From assembly GCA_005116775.1 (NCBI GenBank), contig SWDN01000007.1:16026-51391 (forward strand): a DNA stretch of 35,366 nt, read 5' to 3'. The stretch comes from Nitrospira sp. Lineage in GTDB: Bacteria > Nitrospirota > Nitrospiria > Nitrospirales > Nitrospiraceae. Positions within the stretch are counted from its first letter, which is position 1, and each line of letters begins with the position of its first letter. Position numbers and translations under genes: made by a program. This document shows, piece after piece, positions 400 to 14,677 of this stretch. Below the pieces are notes generated by a model. It was not told the DNA's origin, did not search any database, and was given only the letters and a program-made list of their open reading frames with translations.

Positions 400-1497
400 A
401 TGCCGTTAATTTGGTGCGCCATCTCCGGACATGGCTACGGCCACGCGGCACAAACGGTGCCCGTACTCAATGCACTGGGGACTCTCGTCCCAGGCGTGAA
501 CGTCATCCTCCGCACGACTGTCCCAGCCTCGTTTTTCAAGGACCGTCTGACGATCCCTTGGGACCATCAACCTGTCCAGCAAGATGTCGGCTGTCTCCAA
601 GATGGCCCCCTCAAGATCGACATCGAGGCAACTTGGGAGGCGCACCGTCGCTTTCACGACACCTGGGAGGCACGGTTGTCCCATGAAGTCGCCGCCATGC
701 AGACCGCATCGCCGGCATTGGTCATCGCCGACACACCCTATCTTGCCATTGAGGCCGGTTCTCGCGCAGGGATACCGACCGTCTCCTTGGCAAGCTTTAC
801 CTGGGATCTCGTGCTCACGGAGTACCGCAGTACGTCAGACCGGTCGCATCAACAATTGATCCAGCATATCCGTCGTTCCTACGCCAAAGCCGACAGAGCC
901 CTTCGCATCACCCCCGCTCCAAAATTTGATGTCTTCTCTCACATGGTGGATATCGGTCCGATTGCCGATCCCGCTCGACCTGAACGGGACCGCCTTGCCT
1001 CAACCCTCGCCTTGACACCCAGCGAACGAATTGTATTGGTGGGATTCGGGGGCATTCCTTTGACATCCCTCCCGCTTGAACACATGGAGCAGTTGCTCCG
1101 CTATCGTTTTCTCATCGATGGCTCAGTCCCAGCAGGCTATTCCCGCATTCATTCCATCGAGGCGCTTCCTTTCTCTTTTAAGACACTGCTCGCCTCTGTC
1201 GATATCATCATGACCAAGCCCGGCTATGGCACCCTCGTCGAAGCCGTCGCGCTGCAACAACCAGTCGTGTACGTTCGCCGATACAATTTTGCCGATGAAC
1301 CGCCGCTCGTCGACTATCTGAACCGCTATGGACGCAGCATCGAGCTCTCAATAGATGACTTCACGAATGCCCATTGGGAGCCGGCGATCAGTCAGGCCCT
1401 AGCCATGCGTTCGCCACAGGCTGCCCCCCCGTCATCGACCGGCGCAATACAGGCAGCCTCCATTCTCGCACCATACCTGAGCAGGGCAAAAACTTGA
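400..1497 (+). CDS. GT28/MurG-like glycosyltransferase
   Basis: The 365-residue product has a GT-B fold layout. The N-terminus carries SGHGYGH (residues 9-15), the glycine-rich loop after the first strand as in MurG-like and L-arabinokinase-N-terminal-like proteins. The C-terminal half has TKPGYGTLVEA (about 272-282), matching the nucleotide-sugar binding signature of GT28 enzymes, followed by a typical VVYVRR strand. No signal peptide or membrane segment is seen, so it is probably cytoplasmic. The ATG at 400 has no good Shine-Dalgarno; the hairpin element ends 23 bases upstream. The stop overlaps the start of the next gene by one base, showing tight coupling. The sugar donor and acceptor cannot be told from sequence. 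A role in decorating the peptide encoded downstream is inference from operon position. Confidence 0.75.
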   Translation: MPLIWCAISGHGYGHAAQTVPVLNALGTLVPGVNVILRTTVPASFFKDRLTIPWDHQPVQQDVGCLQDGPLKIDIEATWEAHRRFHDTWEARLSHEVAAMQTASPALVIADTPYLAIEAGSRAGIPTVSLASFTWDLVLTEYRSTSDRSHQQLIQHIRRSYAKADRALRITPAPKFDVFSHMVDIGPIADPARPERDRLASTLALTPSERIVLVGFGGIPLTSLPLEHMEQLLRYRFLIDGSVPAGYSRIHSIEALPFSFKTLLASVDIIMTKPGYGTLVEAVALQQPVVYVRRYNFADEPPLVDYLNRYGRSIELSIDDFTNAHWEPAISQALAMRSPQAAPPSSTGAIQAASILAPYLSRAKT

Positions 1498-2306
1498 TGC
1501 GCTTTCTGGGCCTGCTGATTATCTACCTCTCTCGCATTTGCGCCCGTGTCGGAAGTCTTGTCTACGAGGTCAATGAGTTTTTAAACGGCCTCTTACCGGC
1601 ATTATTGCCTGCGGAAGAACTCACAAGGTTGATCCGAGTCCACTATGAAGGCATGTATCGCGATGCCGCAACTCACTATTCGGCAATAGTCCTTGAATGG
1701 GGTCTTGAACCCTGGGAAGAAGAGGTTATCGCCCAACACAAGATTCAATCCGGCATCACCGTTGTACTAGGCGCCGGCGTTGGCCGTGAATCCATCGCCC
1801 TCGCCCAACGCGGACTGCGCGTGATTGGACTCGACGTCAATCATGAAGCCCTGTCTTTTGCGGCTCAAACCGCACGGTCCAAATTCATCGACATGGCATG
1901 TGTCCAAGCCAGCTTCTTGGCGCTCCCGATAGTCCCCGGACAAATAGACTACTTGTTTCTCTCCAGTATCATGTACAGCTCCGTTCCCGGCCGACATGCA
2001 CGCCAAGCCTGGCTCCGAAACCTCAGCACCCATCTAAAAGTCGGCGGGGTGGCCTTAGTCAGTTTTCTTATCGACCGAACCGGAAAATCTGGCCCTCCGC
2101 GACTGGCCCACCGGCTCAGCTCTTGGCTGGCCGGATTGCCTGGCGCAAACCATGCTTATCAACTCGGAGATGTATTTTCCGGCGGCCACTTTCTCCACGC
2201 CTTCGTCACCGAAGAAGAGCTTCGATCCGAAATGATCGAAACAGGCGCCACGATCATCCAACTCAACTGGGACAGACAATTTGCGGTGCTGACCTGGCCC
2301 AGCTGA
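1497..2306 (+). CDS. Class I SAM-dependent methyltransferase
   Basis: The start is placed at ATG 1497, which shares its A with the TGA of the glycosyltransferase; an in-frame ATG at 1374 lies deep inside the previous gene and is less likely. The 269-residue product has motif I at about 89-105 (VVLGAGVGRESIALAQRG), an acidic end of strand two (GLDVNHEA), and a post-motif strand reading IDYLFLSS, all typical of Rossmann-fold methyltransferases. The N-terminal 30 residues are hydrophobic and may touch the membrane. The substrate is unknown. Coupling to the glycosyltransferase suggests the pair act on the same molecule, possibly the ribosomal peptide or a lipid or sugar partner. Confidence 0.75.
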   Translation: MRFLGLLIIYLSRICARVGSLVYEVNEFLNGLLPALLPAEELTRLIRVHYEGMYRDAATHYSAIVLEWGLEPWEEEVIAQHKIQSGITVVLGAGVGRESIALAQRGLRVIGLDVNHEALSFAAQTARSKFIDMACVQASFLALPIVPGQIDYLFLSSIMYSSVPGRHARQAWLRNLSTHLKVGGVALVSFLIDRTGKSGPPRLAHRLSSWLAGLPGANHAYQLGDVFSGGHFLHAFVTEEELRSEMIETGATIIQLNWDRQFAVLTWPS

Positions 2307-2390
2307 AAGAGCACAGCAACTGTTTTTCTCGAATCGGGGGCAGAAATACCGCTGGAAGGACGGGAGCGGATTTGCTATCCTCCAACGTCC

Positions 2391-2702
2391 ATGAACCTCG
2401 CCACCATCTATTCGAAGAATCCCGACTTTGTTCAACGCGATGTGGCCGGAGAATGCATCCTCGTCCCCATCCGCCGGACCCTCGCTGAAGCCAACAGTAT
2501 TTATGTCCTGAACGAAACCGGCGCGGCTCTGTGGAACCGCATTGATGGAGCCCGGCCCTTCCACGAAATTGCATCAGTCTTCGCGGAAGAATACGATGTG
2601 ACCATCGAACAATTGAATCAGGATCTCGAACCCCTCCTGGCAGACCTGCTGTCGATTCACGCCATTGAAGAGGTTGCCGTCGCCCATGATCCGAGCAGAT
2701 AA
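2391..2702 (+). CDS. PqqD-family peptide chaperone (RiPP recognition element)
   Basis: The 103-residue protein has the PqqD-like pattern: an early beta hairpin (VAGECILVPIRR), then LNETGAALWNRIDG, the alpha-helical segment IASVFAEEYDV and a terminal helix LEPLLADLLSI. In this family the winged-helix domain binds the leader of a ribosomal peptide and presents it to a radical SAM enzyme. It lies 84 bases after the methyltransferase and overlaps the first radical SAM gene by 17 bases, as expected for partners made together. No clear Shine-Dalgarno is visible before ATG 2391. PqqD relatives also occur in HprK-related cassettes, which fits the kinase-like gene downstream. Confidence 0.85.
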   Translation: MNLATIYSKNPDFVQRDVAGECILVPIRRTLAEANSIYVLNETGAALWNRIDGARPFHEIASVFAEEYDVTIEQLNQDLEPLLADLLSIHAIEEVAVAHDPSR

Positions 2703-3597
2703 ACTTCCCCAACTGCCCGAACGATTTCCAATCGCATGCCAGTGGGAAATCACGTGCCGCTGCAACTTGCGATGCGTGATGTGCTATACGGACTGTTTCA
2801 ATCGGCCGGAGTTTGTACGTCAGGAACTCACGACCTCGGAAATCCTTCGCATCATGGATGAGCTGGCCGAGGCCGGCACACTCGAACTCTGTCTCACCGG
2901 CGGAGAGCCGATGGCTCGGGCAGATTTTTTCGACATCTATGAGCATGCTGTCCGCGCCGGCTTTCTGGTGACCGTCTTTACCAACGGTACACTTGTGACA
3001 GAGACTCACGCCGATCGTTTTGCTGCACTCCCCCCTCATCGCATTGAAATCAGCCTGCATGGAGCTACGCCGGAGACCTTCGAGCGGATCACTCAGGGAC
3101 GGGGCTCTCATGATCGATGTCTCAATGCTGTCAAGCTGCTGCTCGATCGCCACGTGCCTTTGGCCTTGAAAACTACGGCGATGACGCTCAACCGACATGA
3201 AATCCTGGCGATCAAGCGTTACGTCGCCTCGCTTGGATCTGTCCAATACAAATTGGGAGAAGAAATGCGGCCAGAGCTTGACGGAGGCTGCGGGCCTTTT
3301 CACTATGCGCTATCCAACCAAGATCTCACGGCCTTGAACCGGCAAGACGAAGAATTGTGGGCTGAGTCCTGCAAACAACAATCTGCGGATCCTTTGCCAT
3401 GCCGAAGCGGCATGCAGCGGTTCCACATCGATGCGTATGGAGGCTTACAGCTCTGCTCCGGCAATCGGACACACAGCTACAACCTGCGGGCCGGCTCGTT
3501 TCGAGAAGGGTTTTTCGAGGCCTTGCCGGCCTTTGCTTGTAAATGGAGCGTCCCTACCGCAGCTGAACTCATTCAGCCAACGGTGTCTCATGCATGA
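2686..3597 (+). CDS. Radical SAM/SPASM-type peptide-modifying enzyme A
   Basis: The start is taken as ATG 2686, with GAAGAGG at 2667-2673 as ribosome site; a TTG at 2665 would add seven residues. The 303-residue product has the iron-sulfur motif C26-x3-C30-x2-C33, then the GGEP motif (LTGGEPMAR), which mark a radical SAM core. The C-terminal part resembles PqqE-like SPASM domains (FHIDAYGGLQLC, then YNLRAGS), but only scattered cysteines are present and the usual closing CxxC...C cluster seen in its two paralogues is absent; it ends soon after FACKWS. It may be a Twitch-type or truncated SPASM enzyme with one fewer auxiliary cluster. It overlaps enzyme B by eight bases. Confidence 0.85.
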   Translation: MIRADKLPQLPERFPIACQWEITCRCNLRCVMCYTDCFNRPEFVRQELTTSEILRIMDELAEAGTLELCLTGGEPMARADFFDIYEHAVRAGFLVTVFTNGTLVTETHADRFAALPPHRIEISLHGATPETFERITQGRGSHDRCLNAVKLLLDRHVPLALKTTAMTLNRHEILAIKRYVASLGSVQYKLGEEMRPELDGGCGPFHYALSNQDLTALNRQDEELWAESCKQQSADPLPCRSGMQRFHIDAYGGLQLCSGNRTHSYNLRAGSFREGFFEALPAFACKWSVPTAAELIQPTVSHA

Positions 3598-4720
3598 GCG
3601 CAGACTCCTTCCCACCATGCAGTACGGTGAGTTCAGCCGCCAGGCTTACAATCGGTCCGTCACGCAGGGACGCATCATCAAAGCGCAGCTTGAGCTGACC
3701 TATCGCTGCAATCTCCACTGCCGTCATTGCTACACCGATCCCTACAACGCGGCGTCACTCTTTCCCCGCGAACTCACCCTGAATGAAATTCACCGTCTCC
3801 TCGATGAAATGCGCGATCTCGGCATCATCTGGCTGAACCTCTCAGGCGGCGACATCTTCATGCATCCCGACTTCTTCGAGATATACGAGCGCGCGCATCG
3901 GCAGGGATTCCTCCCCCAACTCTATACCAACGGCACCTTATTCACTCGCGCAGTCATCGAACGATTGCAGGCCATGCCTCCCTTCACAATCGATGTCTCA
4001 TGCCACTCGGTGAAGGAGGAACGGTTTGATTGGTTCACACAAGTACCCGGCTCTTATCGCGCATTCCGACGAGGCATGACGTTGCTCCAAGAAAGCGGGT
4101 TGCCATTTACGCTCAAAACCAAGCTGATGGACTGGAACAAGGACGAGATCGACGATCTTCGCGCTTTCACCGAATCGTTCGGGCAATCGTTTGGATACAC
4201 GACCTCGCTCTCCCCACGGCTGAACGGCGATTGTTCATCGCTGGCCTATCGGATCGATCCACAAGATTTACGGCGCCTGGAACAGACCAATCTCGCGACC
4301 GACGACAACGACCTCTGCGCGGGAAAACAAGAAATCGCCAGACCTGACAGTGATCGGCTCTATCGATGTGGATGCGGAACAAACTCCATTCACATCAGCG
4401 CTTGGGGCGAATTAGGTGCCTGCACCTTACAGTATGAGCATCGGGTCTCCCTACGCACACACTCCCTACGGAATGCGGTGGCCCAGGTGTTCGGAGCCAT
4501 ACAATCAATGCGCTATCAGAGCGACAGCCCATGCCGCTCCTGTGATATCCACCGTTTTTGCGAGAAAAAACCAACCGATGCCCGATGGGAACAAGGTGTC
4601 GCAGAAGCCCCCATCCCCTACGACTGCGATATCGCGCTAGTTCGAGCGGAACACGCCGTCCGTCAGCCGCTCATTCACCCGTTACGAAACCAGGTCGTGA
4701 CACCGGTACGCATCCCATGA
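3590..4720 (+). CDS. Radical SAM/SPASM peptide-modifying enzyme B
   Basis: The ATG at 3590 is chosen because it overlaps the stop of enzyme A; ATG 3617 is an alternative. The 376-residue product has C40-x3-C44-x2-C47 for the 4Fe-4S cluster that cleaves SAM and a modified glycine motif (LSGGDIF instead of GGEP). The SPASM part is complete by eye: CGCG..., ACTLQ and the closing PCRSCDIHRFC. Such PqqE-like enzymes use auxiliary clusters to crosslink or epimerise residues of a ribosomal peptide. The stop lies 38 bases before the candidate substrate peptide, which strongly suggests that peptide as substrate. The type of modification is not predictable from sequence alone. Confidence 0.88.
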   Translation: MHERRLLPTMQYGEFSRQAYNRSVTQGRIIKAQLELTYRCNLHCRHCYTDPYNAASLFPRELTLNEIHRLLDEMRDLGIIWLNLSGGDIFMHPDFFEIYERAHRQGFLPQLYTNGTLFTRAVIERLQAMPPFTIDVSCHSVKEERFDWFTQVPGSYRAFRRGMTLLQESGLPFTLKTKLMDWNKDEIDDLRAFTESFGQSFGYTTSLSPRLNGDCSSLAYRIDPQDLRRLEQTNLATDDNDLCAGKQEIARPDSDRLYRCGCGTNSIHISAWGELGACTLQYEHRVSLRTHSLRNAVAQVFGAIQSMRYQSDSPCRSCDIHRFCEKKPTDARWEQGVAEAPIPYDCDIALVRAEHAVRQPLIHPLRNQVVTPVRIP

Positions 4721-4744
4721 CGTCGCTCAATCTCAATGTCGTGT

Positions 4745-4749
4745 AGGAG
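4745..4749 (+). promoter_or_regulatory. Strong ribosome binding site of the precursor peptide
   Basis: AGGAG ends nine bases before ATG 4759. It is the clearest Shine-Dalgarno in the operon, whose other genes mostly rely on overlapping starts, and agrees with the substrate peptide being translated more heavily than its enzymes. Confidence 0.7.
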
Positions 4750-4758
4750 CACTTCACT

Positions 4759-5010
4759 ATGACGGAAAGAAAACCCTATAGCCCTCCGGTCCTCTATGAG
4801 GTACCCCTGGATCACGAACAGGCCATCCTCACTGCTTGCAGTTTGACGACCATGTCCGCCGCTGCAGGAGGCGGCATGAACGGCTGCCGGACCAGTGGTA
4901 GGTGTGAATCAGCCATGTGCGGCGGCTCATTGGGGGGGTGCAAACGCTCATCCCTCGCGCTATCGTGCGGCGGACAAACCTGTCACGATTCAGGCGTTCG
5001 AGCTTCATAG
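4759..5010 (+). CDS. Candidate RiPP precursor peptide, Cys/Gly-rich core
   Basis: This 83-residue peptide sits between radical SAM genes and has the shape of a leader plus core. Residues 1-30 are charged and ordered-looking, with the spaced pattern K5-x-Y7-x2-P10-x-L12 and then AILTACSL (22-29), which I regard as the recognition leader. Residues 33-39 read SAAAGGG, a small-residue junction. The remaining core holds six cysteines at 43, 49, 54, 61, 70 and 75 (spacing x5, x4, x6, x8, x4) among Gly, Ser and Arg; a seventh, C27, is in the leader. Composition is unlike its enzyme neighbours. Radical SAM thioether crosslinks (sactipeptide or ranthipeptide style) or another Cys-based modification are plausible. 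An alternative is a small metal-binding protein, but the gene context argues for a modified peptide. Confidence 0.82.
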   Translation: MTERKPYSPPVLYEVPLDHEQAILTACSLTTMSAAAGGGMNGCRTSGRCESAMCGGSLGGCKRSSLALSCGGQTCHDSGVRAS

Positions 5011-5018
5011 GTTGCCCT

Positions 5019-5924
5019 ATGCAGATTGAATTGCAGCTAGGCGGGCTCGTCCTTCACCTCCGCGAACGGCATGACTACCCCTGCTTGGCATGGCCAATTC
5101 GGCCATTCGACAAGTTCCTGGCAGAGCCGGGCTTACAACCGGATTTCGAGATCGACGTCGAGGTCTGCTCTACCCTCCCAGAATTTAAGAAAGGCCTCCT
5201 TCGATTCGACGCAGCCCACGGCTATTGGACCGTTTTCGAGTCGGATTCCGGACTCGTCATCGAAAGCTTGAGCCCGCAGCTCCTCCAGCCACGGGCTCGG
5301 GCGCTCCTATCAGCCGACTACCGGACAGTGCGTGCGTGGATCTTGCCGGAGTTTCATCTGGGACAAGTCGGTTGGAGTCCCATGCACCTCTTCAATCCCA
5401 TCGTTGAAGTCTGCCTCCTCTCCCGTCTCGCCCTTGACGGCGGTCTCCTGCTCCACGCGGCTGGCGTCACCACCTACGATCAGGGCTACGTCTTCACCGG
5501 CGCCTCAGGAACGGGCAAATCGACCATCTCTCAATTCTTTGCCGACCAGGGCGCATTGATCCTCAGTGACGAACGAGTCATCCTGCGCCAACATGGAAGC
5601 GCCTTCACCGTCTATGGAACACCCTGGGTCGGCTCCGGACAGTACGCGGCGAACGCTTCGGGCTCGATCACCGGCCTCTACGGGATTGCGCACAGCGAGC
5701 ATCAGCATCGGATAGGGCCGCTTTCTCCGACGAAAACGATGTCTCTTCTTCTACAACAATCCTTTCTTCCCCATTGGGATCGCGCGGCGATGGAAGCGAC
5801 GCTCGAATTTCTTGCTTCATTCACTTCACATATTCCTTGCTTCAGCCTCGGATTTCTGAAACAAGCCGACGTGGTCGAACTGCTTCAGACCCGTCCGGCT
5901 TCCTTGGCGGCAGGCATCACATGA
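5019..5924 (+). CDS. HPr kinase-like P-loop protein (HprK-related)
   Basis: Starts at ATG 5019, eight bases after the peptide stop; the frame is open upstream but that part overlaps the precursor. The 301-residue product has LLLHAAGV (143-150) followed by the Walker A loop GASGTGKST (161-169) and LILSDE shortly after, the arrangement of HPr kinase/phosphorylase-like proteins found in peptide cassettes and HPr-rel-A type systems. It lacks the N-terminal domain of true HprK. In some lasso-peptide clusters, homologues phosphorylate the peptide; whether this one phosphorylates the core Ser residues, another protein or a small molecule is open. The next radical SAM gene begins inside its stop codon. 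Confidence 0.78.
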   Translation: MQIELQLGGLVLHLRERHDYPCLAWPIRPFDKFLAEPGLQPDFEIDVEVCSTLPEFKKGLLRFDAAHGYWTVFESDSGLVIESLSPQLLQPRARALLSADYRTVRAWILPEFHLGQVGWSPMHLFNPIVEVCLLSRLALDGGLLLHAAGVTTYDQGYVFTGASGTGKSTISQFFADQGALILSDERVILRQHGSAFTVYGTPWVGSGQYAANASGSITGLYGIAHSEHQHRIGPLSPTKTMSLLLQQSFLPHWDRAAMEATLEFLASFTSHIPCFSLGFLKQADVVELLQTRPASLAAGIT

Positions 5925-6976
5925 AGCAACTCGACAGAGAATCGTACCTAGCCGCAGTCACATCGAAAGCTCTGCAGACCCGCCGGCCCGAAGGCGTAAC
6001 CTTTGAGCTGACCTATGGCTGCAATTTCAAATGCGTCCATTGCTACAACCCCACCCATCGCGCCCTACCCTATGAACTCACTACTTCCGAGATTTGTGAG
6101 ATCCTGAACCAGATCGCCGATCTTGGGGTACTCACAGTCACCTTCACCGGCGGTGAGCCGAGTGTACGCCCCGACATCGATGACATTCTTCGACATGCAC
6201 GGCAGCAGGGATTGATCATTCACTTGATGACCAACGCCACCCGCATCACTCCATCGTTTACCGACCTCCTCCATGAGGTCGGCGTCAGTCAGATCGAGGT
6301 CTCGATTTATGGCGCAACAGAAACAGTTTATGAACAGATGACCGCAATCCCAGGCTCCTATCGGCAATTTCGACAAGGCCTACTCAATCTTGCCGCTGCC
6401 GCGCTGCCGGTTGTCGTGCGCATGCCGGTGACGACCATCAATCACGAGGAAATCCAGGCCTGTCGGCAACTGGTGGAGTCTCTGTACATGAAATTCCAAT
6501 ATTGTTTGGAAATCATGACCACCATCACGGGCGATCGGACCCCGTTGCAATATCGCCTTGCCTCTGAAGAGAAAGTCCGAATCGATCAGGAACTGCTTCC
6601 ACACCGATGGACTGAGACCTCGGAAGAATCCTGTTCAAACAACCCCTTCATCGAATGCGCCTGCGGCCAGAGTCGATTTGCCATCACTCCCTATGGTGAG
6701 ATGAATCTCTGTACGGCCTTCCCGATCCCGCGCTATAATCTCCGTGCTGGCTCGGTGAAAGAAGGCTGGGAGATGCTCAAGCTGACTGTCGACCAGGCGC
6801 ACCCCAGTCAGCAGTATGAATGTCCGACCTGTGACGCGCGGCCTCACTGTCGCCAAGGACGGAGCGATGCGTGGCTTGAAACCGGGGACATGAGTTCCTG
6901 CCTCCCGCACTATAAGGAATGGGCGCAATTGGAGCATCACACCCATGCCCTCCTCGACCCTCGACGACCTCGCTGA
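5921..6976 (+). CDS. Radical SAM/SPASM peptide-modifying enzyme C
   Basis: ATG 5921 overlaps the kinase stop as ATGA. The 351-residue product has C34-x3-C38-x2-C41, the motif FTGGEPSVR, and a full SPASM region: CACGQSRFAITPYG, NLCTAF and the closing ECPTCDARPHC. It shares YNLRAGS with enzyme A and is closer to it than to enzyme B around that block, so the three are diverged paralogues. Its place after the substrate and kinase suggests a later step, which is inference. The 3' end overlaps the nucleotidyltransferase gene by 32 bases. Confidence 0.88.
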   Translation: MKQLDRESYLAAVTSKALQTRRPEGVTFELTYGCNFKCVHCYNPTHRALPYELTTSEICEILNQIADLGVLTVTFTGGEPSVRPDIDDILRHARQQGLIIHLMTNATRITPSFTDLLHEVGVSQIEVSIYGATETVYEQMTAIPGSYRQFRQGLLNLAAAALPVVVRMPVTTINHEEIQACRQLVESLYMKFQYCLEIMTTITGDRTPLQYRLASEEKVRIDQELLPHRWTETSEESCSNNPFIECACGQSRFAITPYGEMNLCTAFPIPRYNLRAGSVKEGWEMLKLTVDQAHPSQQYECPTCDARPHCRQGRSDAWLETGDMSSCLPHYKEWAQLEHHTHALLDPRRPR

Positions 6977-7910
6977 CGCCTACACGCAGGTCAGCCTGAT
7001 CAACAAACGCCTGCTCGACGAGTATGAGCTAGTTGGCCTGGCATTCCATCGGCAGGGCATTGAGTGTATTCTCCTGAAAGGGGCCGATCTGCTCTCGCGC
7101 CTCTACGGGATGCGCGGGACGAGGCCCCTCTCCGACGTAGATCTGCTAGTCCATGAACAAGACCTCCCGGCCATTCATCGGCTGTTAATTGAGATCGGAT
7201 TTACACAACAGATCGACGGCAATCCATCCTATCGTTCATCCCTCTGCACACTCTCTCTGGATCTGGTTACGAACCTCTGGTATCTCGACAATGAAGGACT
7301 TGCGGCGGTGTGGGCGCGGGCGCGAATTCGACCACTCGGTCAGCTGACAGTCAAGCAACTGAGTTCTACCGACCTGTTGCTCTACTTGAACGCATACTCG
7401 GTCGTTCACCGTGGGCACCTCTCCCTTTCTTTTTTTACCGATCTCCGATTGCTGATTATGAAGGAGCCGATTCATTGGCCTGCGCTCGTCGAGGAAGCAC
7501 ACCGCCGCCACCTCAAGATTCCTCTGTACCACGGCCTGCGTCAGCTGGCATTGTCAAACCCCTCGCTCGCCGTTCCTGCTCCCGTGATCCAGCAGCTCGC
7601 GCCATCGACCACCGGCGAACGCATCCTGGAATTTCTTTTCCAACGCTTAGTGGAAACCAGACCGATCCCAGAGCTCGGACATTTTTTGCTATGGATCACT
7701 CAACCGCCTGGGCATAGGCTGGCCTGGGTCCGGCGCGCCATCCTTCCGCCATCGCCCTTTCTCGCCTATCGCTATGGGGATATGGGAATCGCCCGGCCCT
7801 GGCAGACCAGAATCACCAGATGGTGGCACCTGACTAAAGCGGCAAGTCTCTTACTGACTCGCATCCTGATTCGGCTCACATTGTGGCGCACGGCAAGGAC
7901 GGTGTCATGA
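6945..7910 (+). CDS. NTP_transf_5-type nucleotidyltransferase family protein
   Basis: The 321-residue protein has the family hallmarks ILLKGADLL (42-50, with K45-G46) and the nucleotidyltransferase acid pair in RPLSDVDLLV (D64 and D66). GGAG at 6931-6934 serves as ribosome site for ATG 6945. Members of this family (PF14907) recur beside HprK-like kinases and PqqD-like proteins in lasso-peptide and exosortase-linked cassettes, but their reaction is not established; nucleotidyl transfer to peptide or sugar is possible. The C-terminal part is rich in Arg, Trp and Leu and may associate with membrane. It ends within the start codon of the peptidase-like gene. Confidence 0.75.
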   Translation: MPSSTLDDLADAYTQVSLINKRLLDEYELVGLAFHRQGIECILLKGADLLSRLYGMRGTRPLSDVDLLVHEQDLPAIHRLLIEIGFTQQIDGNPSYRSSLCTLSLDLVTNLWYLDNEGLAAVWARARIRPLGQLTVKQLSSTDLLLYLNAYSVVHRGHLSLSFFTDLRLLIMKEPIHWPALVEEAHRRHLKIPLYHGLRQLALSNPSLAVPAPVIQQLAPSTTGERILEFLFQRLVETRPIPELGHFLLWITQPPGHRLAWVRRAILPPSPFLAYRYGDMGIARPWQTRITRWWHLTKAASLLLTRILIRLTLWRTARTVS

Positions 7911-8692
7911 TTCGCCTCGTAGCCCCACTCACGTTGGATGGCTGTTTTTCGGCTCAGGATTTACCGGACGAACTTCCGCTCACTCTCCTGAACGACTTAG
8001 TCATTCCTCGCATCGTCTCCTCAAGCATGTTGCCGACAATTCAAGAAGGCGACAGACTTGAACTCAGTCCTCCGACCTCTCTCACCGTCGGCGCCATCGT
8101 GGTATTCAGGCACGACAGCCTTCTCATCTGCCACCGCATCACCGCCATCGATCCACAAGGCACAGTCACGACGAGAGGCGACGCCACACAGGGCCCCTCT
8201 GAGATCGTTCCACCAGACTCTGTGATCGGAGTGGTCACCGGAGTCATCCGCAAGGGCGCTCGTGTATCGTTCGATCAACACCCGCGTATGTCATCGGCCA
8301 CAACGCATCCTGGCGCCCTTACGAGCCGTACTCGGACTGTGGCCACGAAGTCAGTGACCGGGACCTTTCGCATCCTCACGCAATTCTCATTGTTTCAGCC
8401 AACGATCAGTCTGCTGCTCTACTGGGTAGCGACGGTCGATGTCCTCACTCTTGCGCCGCTTCAATCTCTCCATTCCCACTCCAAAGTTGCTTCATGTTCA
8501 CTCCGAACGTATCAACGCAAAGCCGGACGTCTTGCGGTTTCCGAGGCGAAAAAACCTGCTTGCTTCGTCATTCGCCTGGGGCCCTGGCGATTCGCTCAAT
8601 ATGATCCGGCTACAGAGTCGCTATTGCTCCGCCGATCCTTCCAGGCAGCCGGTCTAGAACCTCTCATTCGGCAATACTGCGGCACGCTGTAA
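7907..8692 (+). CDS. S26-type signal peptidase-like protein (Ser/His)
   Basis: ATG 7907 overlaps the previous stop as ATGA. The 261-residue product has the S26 box SSSMLPT (nucleophile S40), then ICHRIT (H76 in the place of the bacterial general-base Lys, as in SipW/ER-type enzymes) and the TRGDA box (89-93). It lacks the usual N-terminal membrane anchor; one hydrophobic stretch lies at about 160-182, followed by an 80-residue C-terminal part I do not recognise (with FVIRLGPWRFAQYD). In this operon a leader or signal cleavage role on the Cys-rich peptide is the natural hypothesis. It is the last gene of the run; no obvious T-run terminator follows. Confidence 0.72.
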   Translation: MIRLVAPLTLDGCFSAQDLPDELPLTLLNDLVIPRIVSSSMLPTIQEGDRLELSPPTSLTVGAIVVFRHDSLLICHRITAIDPQGTVTTRGDATQGPSEIVPPDSVIGVVTGVIRKGARVSFDQHPRMSSATTHPGALTSRTRTVATKSVTGTFRILTQFSLFQPTISLLLYWVATVDVLTLAPLQSLHSHSKVASCSLRTYQRKAGRLAVSEAKKPACFVIRLGPWRFAQYDPATESLLLRRSFQAAGLEPLIRQYCGTL

Positions 8693-8886: not shown

Positions 8887-9489
8887 ATGGATAAAGCCTC
8901 TCAGTACACCACATCGATGATCGACCCGGCTTTGCTCGCTCGCGTGATGACCGGCGATCAGCAGGCGTTCAGCCAGCTCTATGACCATTCGAGTACCCTC
9001 TTATTCACGTTGGCAGTCAGAATCTTGGGAAATCGCGAAGAAGCGGCGGAACTCTTGCAGGATGTGTACTTAGAAGTCTGGCGAAAGGTCTCACGCTATG
9101 ATGTCGGGCGTGGAACTCCCATCGCATGGTTGGTCACCTTGACCAAGAGTCGGGCCATCGACCGACTGCGAGCCAGAGCCTCACGAGGGTATGGATCCAC
9201 GAACCAGCTGGAATCAGAAACCGCTGCACAGATGGCCGATCCAGGGCCAAGCCCTCTTGAGACGCAGGCCGATCAAGAACTGCGTAGTGCAGTCGGGACT
9301 GCTGTGTCAGGATTGCCTCAGGCGCAGCAACAAGCGATTGCACTGGCTTACTATGAAGGACTCTCCCATAGCGAGATCGCCTCGCGGCTCAACCAGCCGC
9401 TGGGAACAGTCAAAACCAGGATCAAACTGGGGATGTCCAAGCTTCGCGAGAGCCTCCAACAGTGGAGAAATCATGGTGACCTTCAATGA
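8887..9489 (+). CDS. ECF RNA polymerase sigma factor, SigK-like
   Basis: The 200-residue protein has sigma region 2 (FSQLYDHSSTLLFTLAVRIL, then EEAAELLQDVYLEVWRK and a GTPIAWLVTLTKSRAIDRLR segment) and region 4 with the helix-turn-helix LSHSEIASRLNQPLGTVKTR. The signature is that of ECF factors controlled by RskA-type membrane anti-sigma factors, which is what the next gene encodes with a four-base overlap. ATG 8887 is chosen over the upstream TTG 8809 because the latter would add residues unlike the family; ATG 8917 is also possible. The target genes are not visible here, and no obvious autoregulatory promoter was identified. Confidence 0.9.
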   Translation: MDKASQYTTSMIDPALLARVMTGDQQAFSQLYDHSSTLLFTLAVRILGNREEAAELLQDVYLEVWRKVSRYDVGRGTPIAWLVTLTKSRAIDRLRARASRGYGSTNQLESETAAQMADPGPSPLETQADQELRSAVGTAVSGLPQAQQQAIALAYYEGLSHSEIASRLNQPLGTVKTRIKLGMSKLRESLQQWRNHGDLQ

Positions 9490-10502
9490 CGCATGAAGAA
9501 CTCGAAGATTCGGTTCCTCTGTATGCTGCGGGCGCGCTGGACAAGGTCGAGCGGCAGGCGCTGGAAGCCCACTTACTTTCCGGCTGCGCATCGTGCCACA
9601 GCGCGCTGAAGGACTATCAATCGATCGCCGCGCTTCTCCCGCTCAGTCTCAGCCCGATCACCCCCCCACGCTCCCTCAAAGCTAGAGTCATGGCCGAGCG
9701 AAACCCTATGCCGCTTCCAGCTGTAACGGAAAAGAAGGAACCGGCCAAGCCAAGTTTGGAGCCCGGCGAATGGATGGAACACCTCTTTCCTCCCGTTGCT
9801 CCCGCTCGATCCTCATCATTGCCCTGGGCTCTCGGTTTCGCCGCACTTCTGATCCTAGCGGTCGGGGGATATGTGGCATGGAGCCTCTCGACACAACGGT
9901 CCATCGCCACATCCAACATTCAGCAGCTCGAAACATCGCTTCAGGAAAAATCGGCGAAGCTTGCCGATGTGAGCCGAGAAGTTGCCGACCAAGCCAAAAC
10001 CCTCGCGGAGTTACGCAATGAATTGGAGCAACGAACGATTGAGGCAACGGCAGTGAAAGAACAGTTAGCCCGGCGTGAGGCGGAACTGGAAGACACTCGC
10101 GTTGAACTCACTCAGCGAAACGCTGCTCGCATCGGCAAGACTCCCCAAGACGAATTGGCCACACTCCTTAAAATTCCCAACGTCACAGCCGTGTCTCTCA
10201 CCGGATCAGACATGGCCAAACGAGCAGTGGGATTCTTGCTCTACGATGCTCGAACCCAAAACGCGTGGCTCTACTCCATCAACCTACCGGAAAGTCCCCC
10301 TGGTACGACCTATCAGCTATGGGCCATTCACGATAAACCCGTGAGCATCGGAACCTTTAACATGGATCCGGGGGAAACCTCTCACCTATTGACCAAGAAG
10401 GCGCCGAGATTCGCGGCTGCGAAGACATTTGCCGTCAGCCTCGAACCCTCAGGCGGCCGCCCACAACCAACTGGACCAATCTTCCTCTTGAGCCGGTCCT
10501 AG
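9486..10502 (+). CDS. RskA-like transmembrane anti-sigma factor with coiled coil
   Basis: The 338-residue protein begins with a zinc-finger anti-sigma domain (LYAAGALDKVERQALEAHL then GCASC, an H-x4-C-x2-C site). One membrane helix follows at about 116-135 (WALGFAALLILAVGGYVAW). Outside it is a long charged segment with heptad character (LETSLQEK... to VELTQRNA), predicted coiled coil of roughly 70 residues, and then an RskA C-terminal domain (GFLLYDARTQNAWLY, YQLWAIHDKPVSIG, FAVSLEPSGGRPQPTGPIFL). It should hold the ECF sigma at the inner membrane until a periplasmic signal triggers proteolysis. The coiled coil between membrane and sensor domain is longer than usual. Confidence 0.88.
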   Translation: MTHEELEDSVPLYAAGALDKVERQALEAHLLSGCASCHSALKDYQSIAALLPLSLSPITPPRSLKARVMAERNPMPLPAVTEKKEPAKPSLEPGEWMEHLFPPVAPARSSSLPWALGFAALLILAVGGYVAWSLSTQRSIATSNIQQLETSLQEKSAKLADVSREVADQAKTLAELRNELEQRTIEATAVKEQLARREAELEDTRVELTQRNAARIGKTPQDELATLLKIPNVTAVSLTGSDMAKRAVGFLLYDARTQNAWLYSINLPESPPGTTYQLWAIHDKPVSIGTFNMDPGETSHLLTKKAPRFAAAKTFAVSLEPSGGRPQPTGPIFLLSRS

Positions 10503-12174: not shown

Positions 12175-12948
12175 CTACACTAGTCCACACGGCACGACCC
12201 GCTCTATCCCTTGTGCGGCTACGGCAGCCTCCCATCCTTCGCCACAAGAAAGAAAACGAACCTTCCAGCTTTCCTCAAGTGGCGACCTCACTGGAGCCAG
12301 AACTTCTGCATCGATTCCGTTCCCCCCTAGGATAATCTCGCACTGACCTAACCCCAGCAGTCCGATACCTTGTGCCTTGAGTACCGCTTCTTTCGCAACC
12401 CACAACCGAAAAAATCTCGCAGCTCGTTGCTCCTGAGTCAATTGCATAATCATGGCATGCTCTGAGGGAGCAAAGTAACGCTGGGAAAGTTTCTCAATCT
12501 CTACCTCCGAACGAATACGTTCAAGATCGACTCCGACCTCTAGTCCCTTTGAAATTGCGATAAGCGCACGGCCGTGTGCATGGGATAAATTGAAGGTAAT
12601 TCCGAACTGGCCCTGCAACTCTTTCGTCAAGGCAGGTTTGCCGGTTTCACTCCGACACATCTTTACGGCAGCTGGGCCAAGATCGAGATACCGGCTAAGC
12701 ACCGATCTGAGGCCGCCATGCGCCAGCACATAACGCCATCTGTCCTCCTCTCGAACCAATCGCGCAGCTCTGTCCTGCTCGTATTCGTCCAACCAATCTC
12801 CACATCGCTCCAGAGAGCATCGCGTTCCGTCGAGCGTAATTCCCCAGAGATGAACGGCTTTCGGCTCTAGGCAGATGCGGTTCTGCCACGGAACATCCGT
12901 AAGCTGATTAATCGAGCAGAAAGACATCAACACATTGTCATCCAGCAT
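12175..12948 (-). CDS. 4'-phosphopantetheinyl transferase, Sfp type
   Basis: The 257-residue product has the motifs of Sfp-family enzymes: TGKPAL (102-107), FNLSHAHG (119-126), VGVDLERI (138-145, with metal-binding D141 and E143) and FFRLWVAKEAVLKAQG (179-194). It moves the phosphopantetheine arm of coenzyme A onto the conserved Ser of carrier domains. The adjoining synthetases contain four such domains (one ACP, three PCPs), so this is their activating enzyme; it may also serve other carriers in the cell. It is the last gene of the minus-strand operon, starting 24 bases after the ABC transporter stop. No Shine-Dalgarno is obvious; ATG 12927 is a second possible start. Confidence 0.92.
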   Translation of the reverse strand: MLDDNVLMSFCSINQLTDVPWQNRICLEPKAVHLWGITLDGTRCSLERCGDWLDEYEQDRAARLVREEDRWRYVLAHGGLRSVLSRYLDLGPAAVKMCRSETGKPALTKELQGQFGITFNLSHAHGRALIAISKGLEVGVDLERIRSEVEIEKLSQRYFAPSEHAMIMQLTQEQRAARFFRLWVAKEAVLKAQGIGLLGLGQCEIILGGNGIDAEVLAPVRSPLEESWKVRFLSCGEGWEAAVAAQGIERVVPCGLV

Positions 12949-12972
12949 CTAGCCAGTTGAATGCATGAGCCA

Positions 12973-14637
12973 TCAAAGCGGTTGAGGATTACTTGCCACG
13001 GTCTTCAAGCATTGCACAACTTTACCATCCTCTAATTTAATGACCTGATCACCAAGATGAAAATACCGATCGTCATGAGTAATGACGACCACCAACTTCC
13101 CTCGTGCACGCAGGTCCGGAAGCAACGTTTTGTAAAAAATTTCCTTGTACTGCGGATCTTGGTCTGCCGCCCATTCATCGAACACATAGATCGGGCGATC
13201 CTCCAAGTAAGCTGTCACAAGGGCCAACCGCTTTCGTTGCCCTTGCGAGAGGTCGAGAGTCGAGAATGTACGCTCACGCATGGTGACTTTCTGATCCATG
13301 TGCAGCCATCGCAGGTATTGGGGCGCGAACCTCTCGGCATGGGCATCCGAATGACCCAGGAGTTTATCGAAGAGATGAAAGTCTGAAAATACGACCGAGA
13401 AATGCTCCCGATACCACTCTCGATTTCCGTCGGTAATCATCGTACCAGCCAGCGTCACATGCCCCTGTGAAGGCTGATACAGGCCTGCGAGGACTTTCAC
13501 GAAGGTTGATTTCCCGCTTCCATTCCCTCCGATGACAAACACCAGTTCGCCAGGATGCAGATCGAGACTGATCGGGCCAAGCGCGAAAGGCACTTCGACC
13601 TCTTTTTCCTCGCCGTATGAAAACGTAACGTCGTTCCACTGCACAATGGGAGACATTCCCTCCTTAAGGTCTGTCACGTCTCCCGTCGGGGCATCCTCCA
13701 ACGCGATGTTCAGAGACACACCTAATCGTTCAATATTCTCCAATGCCACTTGACCTCGTTCCAGAGTGGGCACCGCGCCGACAATGCCCCAAACAGGCCC
13801 CATCATATAAAGGACAGCCACCACATACCCCGTCAAGGCCTCAGGGGACAATGTCACCACAGATGGAAACAGAAAGACGACGAAGCCGATGAGGGAATAA
13901 AACATGACCTGAGTCCATGCTTCCGACAGAGCTTGCCGCCGCGTGGCTTCCAAATTTGCTCGCCGATATGATTCGGCCGCCCTCCGCACTTCAAGATCCA
14001 CAAATTCCCGCCGACGCGCCCGATGCATCAATAACTCTTTCAATCCATCCGTGAGGGAGCGAAAGTGCCGAAATAACTCAGCCCTCGCATCGCGAGCTGC
14101 ATAGATGACGCTGAGCGCGCTGATGTGCAACCATCGATATCCCAGAGCGCCGAACAGAGTGAGTCCAACCACCCCCAGAAATGTGCTCCACGACAACCAG
14201 GCCAGGTAGAATCCGCACCCCAACACCACTGCCACGTTCATGATCAGCTGAGGGAAACATTGGATCGCCCAAGTCACCCAGCTGACATCATCTGTCAGGG
14301 TGACGAGCATATTCGCAGCGCCTCGCTGTTCTGAACGCCGCAACGGAGCGCGCAGGATCTTTGCGCAGAGGGACAAAGAAAGATCTAAAATCGTGTCTTG
14401 TGAGAATCGGACGAGTAAAAGCTGCGCCCACAGGTTGGACAGAAGCTTCCCGGCGACGAGCCCCACAAACCCCAGTATCACAAGCGAAGAATGATCGGAG
14501 GAACGATGGAGCACATGAGTAATGAGGGCCAACACTCCGGCGCTCAAAAGACCCGACACGACACCGGCACAGACCAGAAGCCAGGCCATGGTTCTCGAAC
14601 GCTGCACGACAAAGCGGAGAAACCGTCTAAATGGCAT
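12973..14637 (-). CDS. Cyclic-peptide/siderophore-type ABC exporter (PvdE/SyrD-like)
   Basis: The 554-residue protein fuses a six-helix membrane domain (first hydrophobic spans at about 17-45 and 52-75, others to about 290) to an ATPase domain. Walker A is GGNGSGKST (370-378), the signature is LSQGQRKRL, and Walker B runs into YVFDEWAADQDP, a wording characteristic of the cyclic-peptide transporter family (PvdE, SyrD). These move non-ribosomal peptide products out of the cytoplasm. It lies 40 bases after the terminal synthetase and before the transferase, so it is the likely exporter of the lipopeptide made by this operon. Confidence 0.93.
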   Translation of the reverse strand: MPFRRFLRFVVQRSRTMAWLLVCAGVVSGLLSAGVLALITHVLHRSSDHSSLVILGFVGLVAGKLLSNLWAQLLLVRFSQDTILDLSLSLCAKILRAPLRRSEQRGAANMLVTLTDDVSWVTWAIQCFPQLIMNVAVVLGCGFYLAWLSWSTFLGVVGLTLFGALGYRWLHISALSVIYAARDARAELFRHFRSLTDGLKELLMHRARRREFVDLEVRRAAESYRRANLEATRRQALSEAWTQVMFYSLIGFVVFLFPSVVTLSPEALTGYVVAVLYMMGPVWGIVGAVPTLERGQVALENIERLGVSLNIALEDAPTGDVTDLKEGMSPIVQWNDVTFSYGEEKEVEVPFALGPISLDLHPGELVFVIGGNGSGKSTFVKVLAGLYQPSQGHVTLAGTMITDGNREWYREHFSVVFSDFHLFDKLLGHSDAHAERFAPQYLRWLHMDQKVTMRERTFSTLDLSQGQRKRLALVTAYLEDRPIYVFDEWAADQDPQYKEIFYKTLLPDLRARGKLVVVITHDDRYFHLGDQVIKLEDGKVVQCLKTVASNPQPL

Positions 14638-14677
14638 CGTAGGCCAGCCTCGTCTTGACGAAGGAAGGAGATGAACG

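Follow-up and report, generated by a model that had tools for sequence, protein, structure and literature searches.

What would be made by ten adjacent genes that combine three radical SAM (rSAM) enzymes, a PqqD-like protein and an HprK-like kinase with a small Cys-rich peptide? The question is raised by a locus at positions 400-8692 on the + strand of a 35,366 nt stretch, here called the window, of contig SWDN01000007.1 (assembly GCA_005116775.1, Nitrospira sp.). A sequence-only reading had proposed a candidate RiPP locus with partial resemblance to the SynChlorMet and HPr-rel-A cassettes, and this proposal was followed up by computational comparison of the locus with its relatives and with described systems.

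Organization of the gene cluster

All ten genes reported in that reading as codirectional and mostly overlapping were present on the + strand (Table 1), with overlaps at six of the nine junctions. Counting overlaps as negative, the junctions are −1 (glycosyltransferase/methyltransferase), +84 (methyltransferase/PqqD), −17 (PqqD/rS1), −8 (rS1/rS2), +38 (rS2/peptide), +8 (peptide/HprK), −4 (HprK/rS3), −32 (rS3/NTP5) and −4 (NTP5/S26).

Table 1. Features of the cluster, in window coordinates
Feature	Position	Strand	Length	Evidence
Glycosyltransferase	400..1497	+	365 aa	AF2 model and PDB matches
SAM-dependent methyltransferase	1497..2306	+	269 aa	PF13649 3.6e-10
PqqD-family discrete RiPP recognition element (RRE)	2391..2702	+	103 aa	PF05402 2.1e-14
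Radical SAM enzyme 1 (rS1), truncated SPASM/twitch-like region	2686..3597	+	303 aa	PF04055 8.1e-26
Radical SAM/SPASM enzyme 2 (rS2)	3590..4720	+	376 aa	PF04055 6.8e-20
Predicted RiPP precursor peptide, ATG start, C-terminal Ser83	4759..5010	+	83 aa	Invariant residues of alignment A1, dN/dS
Leader motif Y7 to S28, putative RRE-binding segment	4777..4842	+		Strong conservation; lasso RRE motif
Core segment C43 to Lys62, with two universal Cys (C43, C61)	4885..4944	+		Alignment, core Cys counts
C-terminal Ser83 codon, predicted phosphorylation site	5005..5007	+		Terminal Ser counts
HprK-like kinase	5019..5924	+	301 aa	Invariant residues, PEPCK/HPrK fold
Radical SAM/SPASM enzyme 3 (rS3)	5921..6976	+	351 aa	PF04055 1.6e-26
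NTP_transf_5 protein (NTP5), predicted phosphoserine capping	6945..7910	+	321 aa	PF14907 2.2e-28
Archaeal-type signal-peptidase-like (SpI-like, S24/S26) protein, predicted leader peptidase	7907..8692	+	261 aa	PF00717, TIGR02228

Pfam matches confirmed the earlier assignments of the PqqD, NTP_transf_5 and methyltransferase proteins. The glycosyltransferase, for which a Pfam match at E ≤ 1 was absent, was recognized through its AF2 model (pLDDT 92.4), which matched UDP-sugar glycosyltransferases (best 7vm0, E 7.4e-12, TM 0.63) and whose fold we take to be of the GT-B type. The peptidase reached Peptidase_S24 (PF00717) with 23.6 bits (cut-off 23.3), and its best model was the archaeal signal peptidase TIGR02228 with 43.9 bits against a cut-off of 51.85; the relative in locus L102 scored 50.1 bits, and SM.PT and CHR motifs are conserved in the signal-peptidase-like protein. 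No exporter was found by Pfam among the ten operon proteins, and an ABC protein at 12973-14637, next to NRPS-like ORFs, is encoded on the other strand. In many Nitrospira loci the chromosomal position is conserved.

Conservation of the cluster and its distant relatives

When 100 relatives were searched, the peptide was present in all 20 rSAM-positive genomes. Of 36 named loci, which fall under seven phylum-level labels, 34 have it, the hosts being uncultured nitrifier-like bacteria. Co-occurrence across Nitrospirota and beyond thus upheld the candidate RiPP locus. A search for loci lacking a Cys-rich small ORF returned, among the 36, only L079, a fragmentary locus in which everything after an rS2 fragment is missing, and L087, a 9.7 kb contig with PqqD, rS1 and rS2 on which neither peptide nor kinase was found. 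A search for peptides conserved away from the enzymes yielded a stop-containing relic in G031, a genome without rSAM match, and two copies in genomes with a cluster besides, one an orphan in G012 (L055), the other standing alone about 10 kb away in G270 (L134); two weak matches were seen besides, one in G003 and one of 24 residues in G051.

The order rS1-rS2-HprK-rS3 was observed in all those of the 36 named loci, 32 in number, in which the four genes were placed; a cruder re-count flags L062, L074 and L085, where the best rS3 match falls on rS1 or rS2. In the named loci having both peptide and kinase, the peptide sits between rS2 and HprK in all but two: it follows rS3 in L085 and separates HprK from rS3 in L090. 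By tblastn, PqqD was detected in 35, the methyltransferase in 27 and the glycosyltransferase in 24 of the 36 loci. Ten of the 36 lack NTP5 and 11 lack S26, some of these, not all, being on short contigs, and both domain types occur in one ORF in L050 and, in the opposite order, in L101. The cluster is a real unit: co-occurrence, synteny and the dN/dS of the peptide given below speak against chance.

A search with a leader profile led to relatives in other Nitrospirota families. These share the same basic parts, mostly with one rSAM enzyme: in 16 distant cluster loci (L118-L133), PqqD and an rS2-type rSAM enzyme were present in all, HprK in 15 and the SpI-like protein in 14, while NTP5 was found in few distant loci. 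L124, the locus without HprK, lies close to a contig end. As L101-L103 also carry HprK, the kinase occurs in 18 of 19 distant loci. In L122, L127, L128 and L130, kinase and rSAM gene are encoded on different strands, indicating that the parts do not always form one operon. The distant peptides end in Ser in 22 of 23 cases and in Thr in one, and none of the 23 leader-profile alignments reached beyond position 59 of 63.

The precursor peptide

As claimed earlier, the 83-residue peptide is rich in Cys (seven) and Gly (12); it had no match to any Pfam or NCBIfam model. Its leader is nearly fixed and carries a lasso-like YxxPxL motif, whereas the core is variable around an invariant Cys pair. Residues Y7, P10, Q21, A22, L24, C27, C43, C61, D77 and S83 were invariant in the 30 peptides of alignment A1, the invariance of the leader Cys coming partly from selection, as it was demanded by the regular expressions used. 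Purifying selection acts on the peptide, with dN/dS of 0.03-0.21 in the seven computable pairs out of eight. Distance correlations, calculated with no control gene, in part mirror common descent. One to three tandem precursors occur per locus, with near-fixed leaders and differing cores. By these features of its sequence, the peptide is a RiPP precursor.

A C-terminal Ser was found in 55 of 56 distinct peptides, many of them closely related and so not independent, the remaining copy being cut by a stop; the background was 39 of 235 ORFs. In G044, a copy (L050:9572-9730) that is degenerate, cut short by a stop and ends in Leu stands outside this count. Besides the Cys pair, the C-terminal Ser is the constant feature of the peptide, which would explain the presence of the kinase.

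The HprK-like kinase and its predicted target

NCBIfam gave only HprK-related matches below cut-off for the kinase (TIGR04355, 39 bits, cut-off 200). Its proposed HprK-like nature was substantiated by the AF2 model (pLDDT 92.8), which matched PEPCK structures (best E 6.5e-8, TM 0.41 on query) and HPr kinase structures (E 1.7e-6, TM 0.55 on target), and residues 136-200 align weakly to L. casei HprK. H146, the P-loop K167 and D184-E185-R186 were invariant in 33 kinase sequences of the three-rSAM type, all of which have Asp-Glu as their acidic pair, whereas lasso kinases are described with Asp-Asp. In a set of 20 aligned kinases, window included, His, Lys, Asp and Asp/Glu were present in 19, 12 of them having Asp-Asp and seven, the window among these, Asp-Glu; one was different.

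Kinases of phosphorylated lasso peptides are reported to act on the C-terminal Ser, to which PsmN adds hexoses. In the linear polyphosphorylated peptides (LPPs), the kinase LppK phosphorylates core Ser3 and not the C-terminus, so kinases of this group do not all phosphorylate the same site (Popov et al. 2026, PMC13381572). The kinase of the present cluster might accordingly target an internal Ser of the same RiPP, such as S28, with the C-terminal Ser kept for recognition by, for example, the rSAM enzymes or NTP5. LppK works near the cleavage site, and S28, next to the leader Cys, is conserved to at least 90% in A1. Several copies, however, have another residue at this position: Thr is found in L049, Ala in L090 and Glu in L091, and the distant relatives mostly have Lys. 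A terminal Ser or Thr, by contrast, is kept in the 55 intact and the 23 distant peptides, and we regard an internal target as unlikely. We consider it decidedly unlikely that the HprK-like protein serves in regulation or as an adaptor without catalysis, with a plain sactipeptide or ranthipeptide as product: the scores far under the named HprK models and the Asp to Glu change in 33 of 33 sequences would fit, but the catalytic His and P-loop Lys are invariant in those sequences, His-Lys-Asp-Asp is found in 12 of the 20, and in the distant loci a terminal Ser or Thr goes along with the kinase. Phosphorylation of the C-terminal Ser is thus the reading that we prefer.

The radical SAM enzymes

Three PF04055 proteins were found, as the sequence-only reading had stated, but its assignment of all three as SPASM enzymes stood for rS2 and rS3 only. 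In rS1, just a truncated SPASM region is present, with invariant MCYTDC, C239, C257 and C285; rS2 has the full SPASM Cys set (invariant C40/44/47 and C260/262/278/315/318/324/346), as does rS3, where it is likewise invariant. Since there are relatives with a single rSAM enzyme, which is of the rS2 type, the three-enzyme set looks like an elaboration.

Among the best 25 NCBIfam matches per enzyme, all rSAM maturase models, those of PqqE and mycofactocin included, remained far below cut-off. These matches, together with PqqD, an operon without exporter and the conserved chromosomal position, would be compatible with a small PQQ- or mycofactocin-like redox cofactor, made from the peptide as a mere scaffold. 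The strongly differing cores and up to three different precursors per locus argue against such a product, as does the fact that the above-cut-off Pfam matches of the operon include no dehydrogenase, and we hold it to be quite improbable. An even number of core Cys (2, 4 or 6), seen in all but two of the 55 distinct peptides that are intact, would suit an unmodified metal-binding or disulfide peptide with the rSAM enzymes acting elsewhere, but the RRE-motif leader and the constant presence of the peptide inside the cluster and in rSAM-positive relatives make this very unlikely.

Comparison with known systems

The closest described systems are the phosphorylated lasso peptides and the LPPs of Bacillota, both without radical SAM enzymes. 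With the former (paeninodin, pseudomycoidin), the window shares a [Y/W]xxPxL leader, a PqqD-like B1 protein, a nucleotidyltransferase and the pairing of an HprK-like kinase with a Ser-terminated peptide; the lasso RRE motif is given as [Y/W]xxPx[L/V/I/A/F/Y] (PMC13381572). It differs in having rSAM enzymes in place of the macrolactam cyclase and the B2 transglutaminase-like peptidase, and neither an Asn-synthetase-like cyclase nor a B2 peptidase was matched by Pfam among the ten operon and ten flanking proteins.

LPPs are described as linear, confined to Bacillota and served by an MsbA-like exporter, and LppS is their leader peptidase (PMC13381572). Like the clusters studied here they have a discrete RRE, an HprK-like kinase, an NTP transferase, a leader with YxxPx(V/L) and no lasso cyclase, and their precursors, too, number one to three and are conserved at the N-terminus but variable at the C-terminus. 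Their leader is removed by an archaeal-type signal peptidase, to which the signal-peptidase-like protein of the window may correspond, TIGR02228 being its best model, below cut-off. Their leader reads YxxPxVLxHQxIxFETxxS, of which the window has YxxPx(L) without FETxxS. The MsbA-like transporter of LPP clusters has no counterpart among the window's ten operon proteins, and the word 'radical' is absent from the main text of PMC13381572, whereas one to three rSAM enzymes occur here, with Cys cores, a terminal Ser and other phyla.

Sactipeptides and ranthipeptides share SPASM-type rSAM enzymes, as rS2 and rS3 with their full Cys sets, and a Cys core, but in the window a leader of lasso type, a PqqD protein of its own, a kinase and NTP5 are added. 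The resemblance to SynChlorMet and HPr-rel-A held for part types only, lasso peptides and LPPs being nearer. SynChlorMet (ScmC-ScmF) likewise has HprK-like, PqqD-like and two rSAM proteins, but its models were not reached (rS1/ScmE 95.6 and rS2/ScmF 77.7 of 400 bits, kinase/ScmC 21.4 of 125, PqqD/ScmD 14.7 of 100). The HPr-rel-A system likewise has an HprK-related kinase alongside a PqqD-like protein; against TIGR04352, the window kinase scored 30.9 bits with a cut-off of 200.

Proposed pathway and its significance

The whole is probably best explained as a radical-SAM RiPP line equipped for tail phosphorylation with the same kit as phosphorylated lasso peptides and LPPs, as sequence and analogy suggest. 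By family knowledge, PqqD would bind the 83-aa precursor at its YxxPxL leader and hand it to the enzymes. The three rSAM enzymes would cross-link the Cys core, most likely by thioether or C-C bonds at the C43/C61 pair and optional extra Cys. HprK would phosphorylate the C-terminal Ser, and NTP_transf_5 may cap the phosphate and, with the glycosyltransferase and methyltransferase, decorate phosphate or tail, so that the last residue would probably bear phosphate and sugar; the SpI-like peptidase, by analogy with LppS, would remove the leader. That this constitutes an undescribed, widespread RiPP class we give an even chance; it would join cross-linking by one to three rSAM enzymes to a (poly)phosphorylated, sugar- or nucleotide-capped C-terminal Ser. 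Several Nitrospirota families would have its basic form (PqqD, one rSAM enzyme, peptide, HprK, SpI), Nitrospira and scattered phyla the elaborated three-rSAM form.

The cluster appears to unite tail phosphorylation and capping with radical SAM peptide chemistry, two kinds that until now had been described apart. Should this hold, the tail chemistry would be a general module attachable to lasso ring, linear and radical cross-link backbones, and a signal-peptidase-like leader protease would accompany the RRE leader motif and the kinase across phyla. HprK-like, NTP_transf_5 and S24/S26 genes beside PqqD are offered a testable role and named precursors, together with a search rule (YxxP or WxxP leader, C-terminal Ser, HprK nearby), and the one-rSAM relatives provide a small system for assays of a single enzyme with a single kinase. 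Among the hosts of the cluster is Nitrospira, of whose secondary metabolites little is known (PMC9765116).

Gene content of the window locus

All ten genes that the sequence-only reading had described were present, in the order glycosyltransferase, methyltransferase, PqqD, radical SAM enzymes rS1 and rS2, an 83-residue peptide, HprK-like kinase, radical SAM enzyme rS3, NTP_transf_5 protein (NTP5) and S24/S26 peptidase. Pfam and NCBIfam scans upheld the identities of PqqD, the three radical SAM proteins, NTP5, the methyltransferase and the S24/S26 peptidase, the nearest model to the last being archaeal signal peptidase I (SpI). Identification of the kinase and the glycosyltransferase needed structure comparison: AF2 models (pLDDT 92.8 and 92.4) matched PEPCK/HPr kinase and UDP-sugar glycosyltransferase structures, respectively. 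A SPASM region had been attributed to all three radical SAM enzymes; it was full in rS2 and rS3 and truncated in rS1. The peptide matched no Pfam or NCBIfam family at E ≤ 1, and 30 of its relatives scanned singly gave only weak and unrelated NCBIfam matches (best E 0.015). No exporter was found within the window operon. The genome itself comprises 2.67 Mb in 53 contigs, with a completeness estimate of 70%.

Membership in the SynChlorMet or HPr-rel-A cassettes, to which a partial likeness had been noted, was rejected, as the corresponding models scored far below their cut-offs. The genes directly downstream, which we take to encode an ECF-type sigma factor and an anti-sigma-like protein, were matched in 19/36 and 20/36 of the related loci described below, and were excluded as members of the system, being part of a conserved chromosomal neighbourhood. 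Two large ORFs of 2400 and 2248 aa further along are presumably NRPS-like, judging by their motifs; family scans assigned one gene of the same stretch to the phosphopantetheinyl transferases (PF01648) and another to the ABC transporters (PF00005), the ABC gene also lying downstream in loci L056, L068, L069 and L072.

Coordinates of features in the window and in related loci (locus:positions)
Feature	Location	Strand
Ten-gene locus	window 400-8692	+
Presumed sigma and anti-sigma-like genes	window 8917-10502	
Presumed NRPS-like stretch	window 12175-28623	-
Peptide holding a stop (G031)	L035:4145-4330	
Degenerate first peptide copy (G044)	L050:9572-9730	
NTP5 and S24/S26-type domain in one ORF	L050:11950-13629	
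NTP5 and S24/S26-type domain in one ORF, opposite order	L101:10714-12216	
Lone precursor	L055:9653-9952	
Lone precursor	L134:7285-7437	
Several methyltransferase matches, second PqqD	L082:7720-16779	
Several methyltransferase matches, second PqqD	L083:266-8295	
Two rS3-like enzymes, second PqqD, second HprK-like protein	L119:2556-7862	

Related loci and co-occurrence of their parts

A single scan of GTDB contigs with an rS1 alignment yielded 37 loci, from which L092 was rejected (32% identity over only part of rS1), leaving 36. By tblastn these carried rS2 (36, as a fragment in L079), PqqD (35), HprK (33), rS3 (32), the methyltransferase (27), NTP5 (26), the S24/S26 peptidase (25) and the glycosyltransferase (24), and the peptide was found in 34/36 when ORF reading was added to tblastn. 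Many of the absences are from short contigs, yet NTP5 is absent from L085 and L090 despite 10 kb of downstream sequence. In L087 PqqD, rS1 and rS2 are there, and peptide and kinase were not found. In L079 (Nitrospira sp. CG24B) the glycosyltransferase, methyltransferase, PqqD and rS1 are kept; the cluster stops inside rS2 and is decayed beyond, with reverse-strand ORFs next.

The system was checked as a defined unit by co-occurrence in 100 related genomes, using an rS1 profile (E ≤ 1e-60) and a peptide profile, which matched 20 and 23 genomes, respectively. The peptide was present in all 20 rS1-positive genomes, one of which (G010) was counted solely via its rS2, and this together with its presence in 34 of the 36 loci supports the system as defined. 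Of the three genomes with a peptide and no rS1 match, G025 and G073 have contigs ending within the cluster with part of rS2 still there, and in G031, a 99% complete genome, the peptide holds a stop. Within the genus, 15/32 genomes gave a peptide match, the window genome counted in. The cluster is not an assembly artefact, since it is also intact in G199 and G334, which are assembled into one or two contigs.

Flanking genes on both sides are common to many Nitrospira loci, indicating a conserved chromosomal place there. Loci titled outside Nitrospirota belong to Rokuibacteriota, Omnitrophota (two), Acidobacteria, Planctomycetota, Terrabacteria ANGP1 and Elusimicrobia; every one is a MAG record in which single contigs may be misplaced. 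These phyla were reached via rS1 alone, the leader profile described below having been run inside Nitrospirota only. A midpoint-rooted rS2 tree, which carried long-branch warnings, placed the Nitrospira-type, Rokuibacteriota and Elusimicrobia loci apart from a clade of the other phyla and three Nitrospirota loci. Protein distances correlated at 0.84–0.95 among rS1, rS2, rS3, HprK and PqqD and at 0.68–0.85 with NTP5, the comparison having no control gene. Plasmid-borne spread was rejected, since all 310 matches of rS2 in 72,556 plasmid records were below 60% identity; among the eight matches listed, one was a mycofactocin maturase and one a PQQ maturase, the others being radical SAM proteins without a specific name or carrying a PqqD-family label.

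Some loci carry further genes. L082 and L083, both divergent loci from Nitrospirota, are listed in the table; L084 (Omnitrophota) and L091 (Elusimicrobia, match just below cut-off) have PMT_2-like membrane glycosyltransferases within or next to them, and an ABC-2 type pair lies immediately upstream in L103.

The precursor peptide

The 83-residue peptide is the precursor. In seven of eight pairs its dN/dS was 0.03–0.21, the eighth being without synonymous change. Invariant across 30 aligned copies were Y7, P10, Q21, A22, L24, C27, C43, C61, D77 and S83, the leader Cys having been demanded by the regular expressions used for retrieval. The leader matches the lasso RRE motif [Y/W]xxPx[L/V/I/A/F/Y] as quoted in PMC13381572. 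One to three copies occur in tandem, with near-identical leaders and differing cores. Two lone precursors lie apart from the cluster that their genome also holds (L055 and L134, the latter near-identical to the L131 peptide of the same genome); they are possible in-trans substrates.

A C-terminal Ser was found in 55/56 distinct peptides, many of them close kin and hence not independent events, the exception being the stop-cut G031 copy. The background was 39/235 among greedily called ORFs of ≥120 aa, some possibly spurious. Beyond the 56, a Planctomycetota copy inside a long open frame also ends in Ser, and the degenerate, stop-cut first copy of G044 ends in Leu, its second copy being intact.

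Of the 55 intact distinct peptides, 33 have two core Cys, 15 have four, five have six and two have three, an even number in 53/55; a tail Cys was present in all 20 peptides with four or six core Cys and in none of the 33 with two. The even counts were dropped as proof of disulfides: loss of, and exchange between, tandem two-Cys and four-Cys paralogues could produce the pattern, and a single core Cys is found in some of the distant relatives (L127, one L124 copy).

A wider family found by the leader

A search of 395 Nitrospirota genomes with a leader profile built from 18 diverse peptides (E ≤ 1e-4) gave matches in at least 48, at least 18 of them outside the family of the window genome; these are lower bounds, as at most 15 candidates were scored per genome in the two phylum searches. 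Analysis covered 17 regions from 15 of the 18, the remaining three being represented by earlier-retrieved loci. The 16 cluster loci (L118–L133, 15 genomes) had PqqD and an rS2-type enzyme in 16/16, HprK in 15/16 and, within the retrieved stretch, a SpI-like peptidase in 14/16; the locus lacking HprK, L124, has a contig ending near the peptides. PqqD, radical SAM and HprK genes followed in this order on the same strand in 10/15 HprK-bearing loci, the radical SAM gene came first in L129, and the kinase was on the opposite strand in L122, L127, L128 and L130. A single radical SAM gene was found in 15/16, and three in L119.

Of 23 peptides from the distant loci and L101–L103, 22 end in Ser and one in Thr (L103, kinase present). 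None of the 23 profile alignments went beyond position 59 of 63, so the last residue was not required by the search. The cores have little in common except one or more Cys. Several leaders are of the WxxP type, which is reported for paeninodins in PMC13381572.

Proposed tail chemistry and pathway

In the 20 kinases that were aligned, His, the Lys of the P-loop and an Asp are kept, followed by a second Asp in 12 and by Glu in 7, among them the window kinase; the second HprK-like protein of L119 differs at this point. All 33 kinases of the window type have Asp-Glu, in contrast to lasso kinases, which are described with Asp-Asp. According to reviews, paeninodin-type lasso systems have HprK-like kinases that phosphorylate the precursor C-terminal Ser, where PsmN adds hexoses (PMC9266682 and PMC8498205). 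The linear polyphosphorylated peptides (LPP) of Bacillota are reported to combine a discrete RRE, the HprK-like kinase LppK, the NTP transferase LppN and the SpI-like leader peptidase LppS; the kinase and peptidase roles are backed by deletions, the LppK site is core Ser3 and lppN deletion was without effect in the host used (Popov et al., 2026; PMC13381572). As the LppK site is internal, kinase homology alone is insufficient to tell the phosphorylation site. The window locus has counterparts of the LPP set except for the exporter, that of the leader peptidase being putative, and adds the radical SAM enzymes and the Cys core.

NTP5 and an S24/S26-type domain are fused in one ORF in L050 and L101, in opposite orders, which argues that the two proteins belong to one pathway. 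From these fusions and the LPP and lasso counterparts we infer a mechanism in which the radical SAM enzymes would cross-link the peptide, guided by the RRE, Ser83 would be phosphorylated, NTP5 with the glycosyltransferase and methyltransferase would cap the tail, and the SpI-like protein would remove the leader. Against this model stand the internal site of LppK, the Asp-Glu of the window-type kinases, the lack of NTP5 in part of the loci, and the incomplete loci L087 and L079.

Each module has a described counterpart, and searches of a collection of open-licence papers, by titles, abstracts and selected passages, found no description of the full combination. The sequence-only reading of this locus is correct, and the finding extends further than was claimed.
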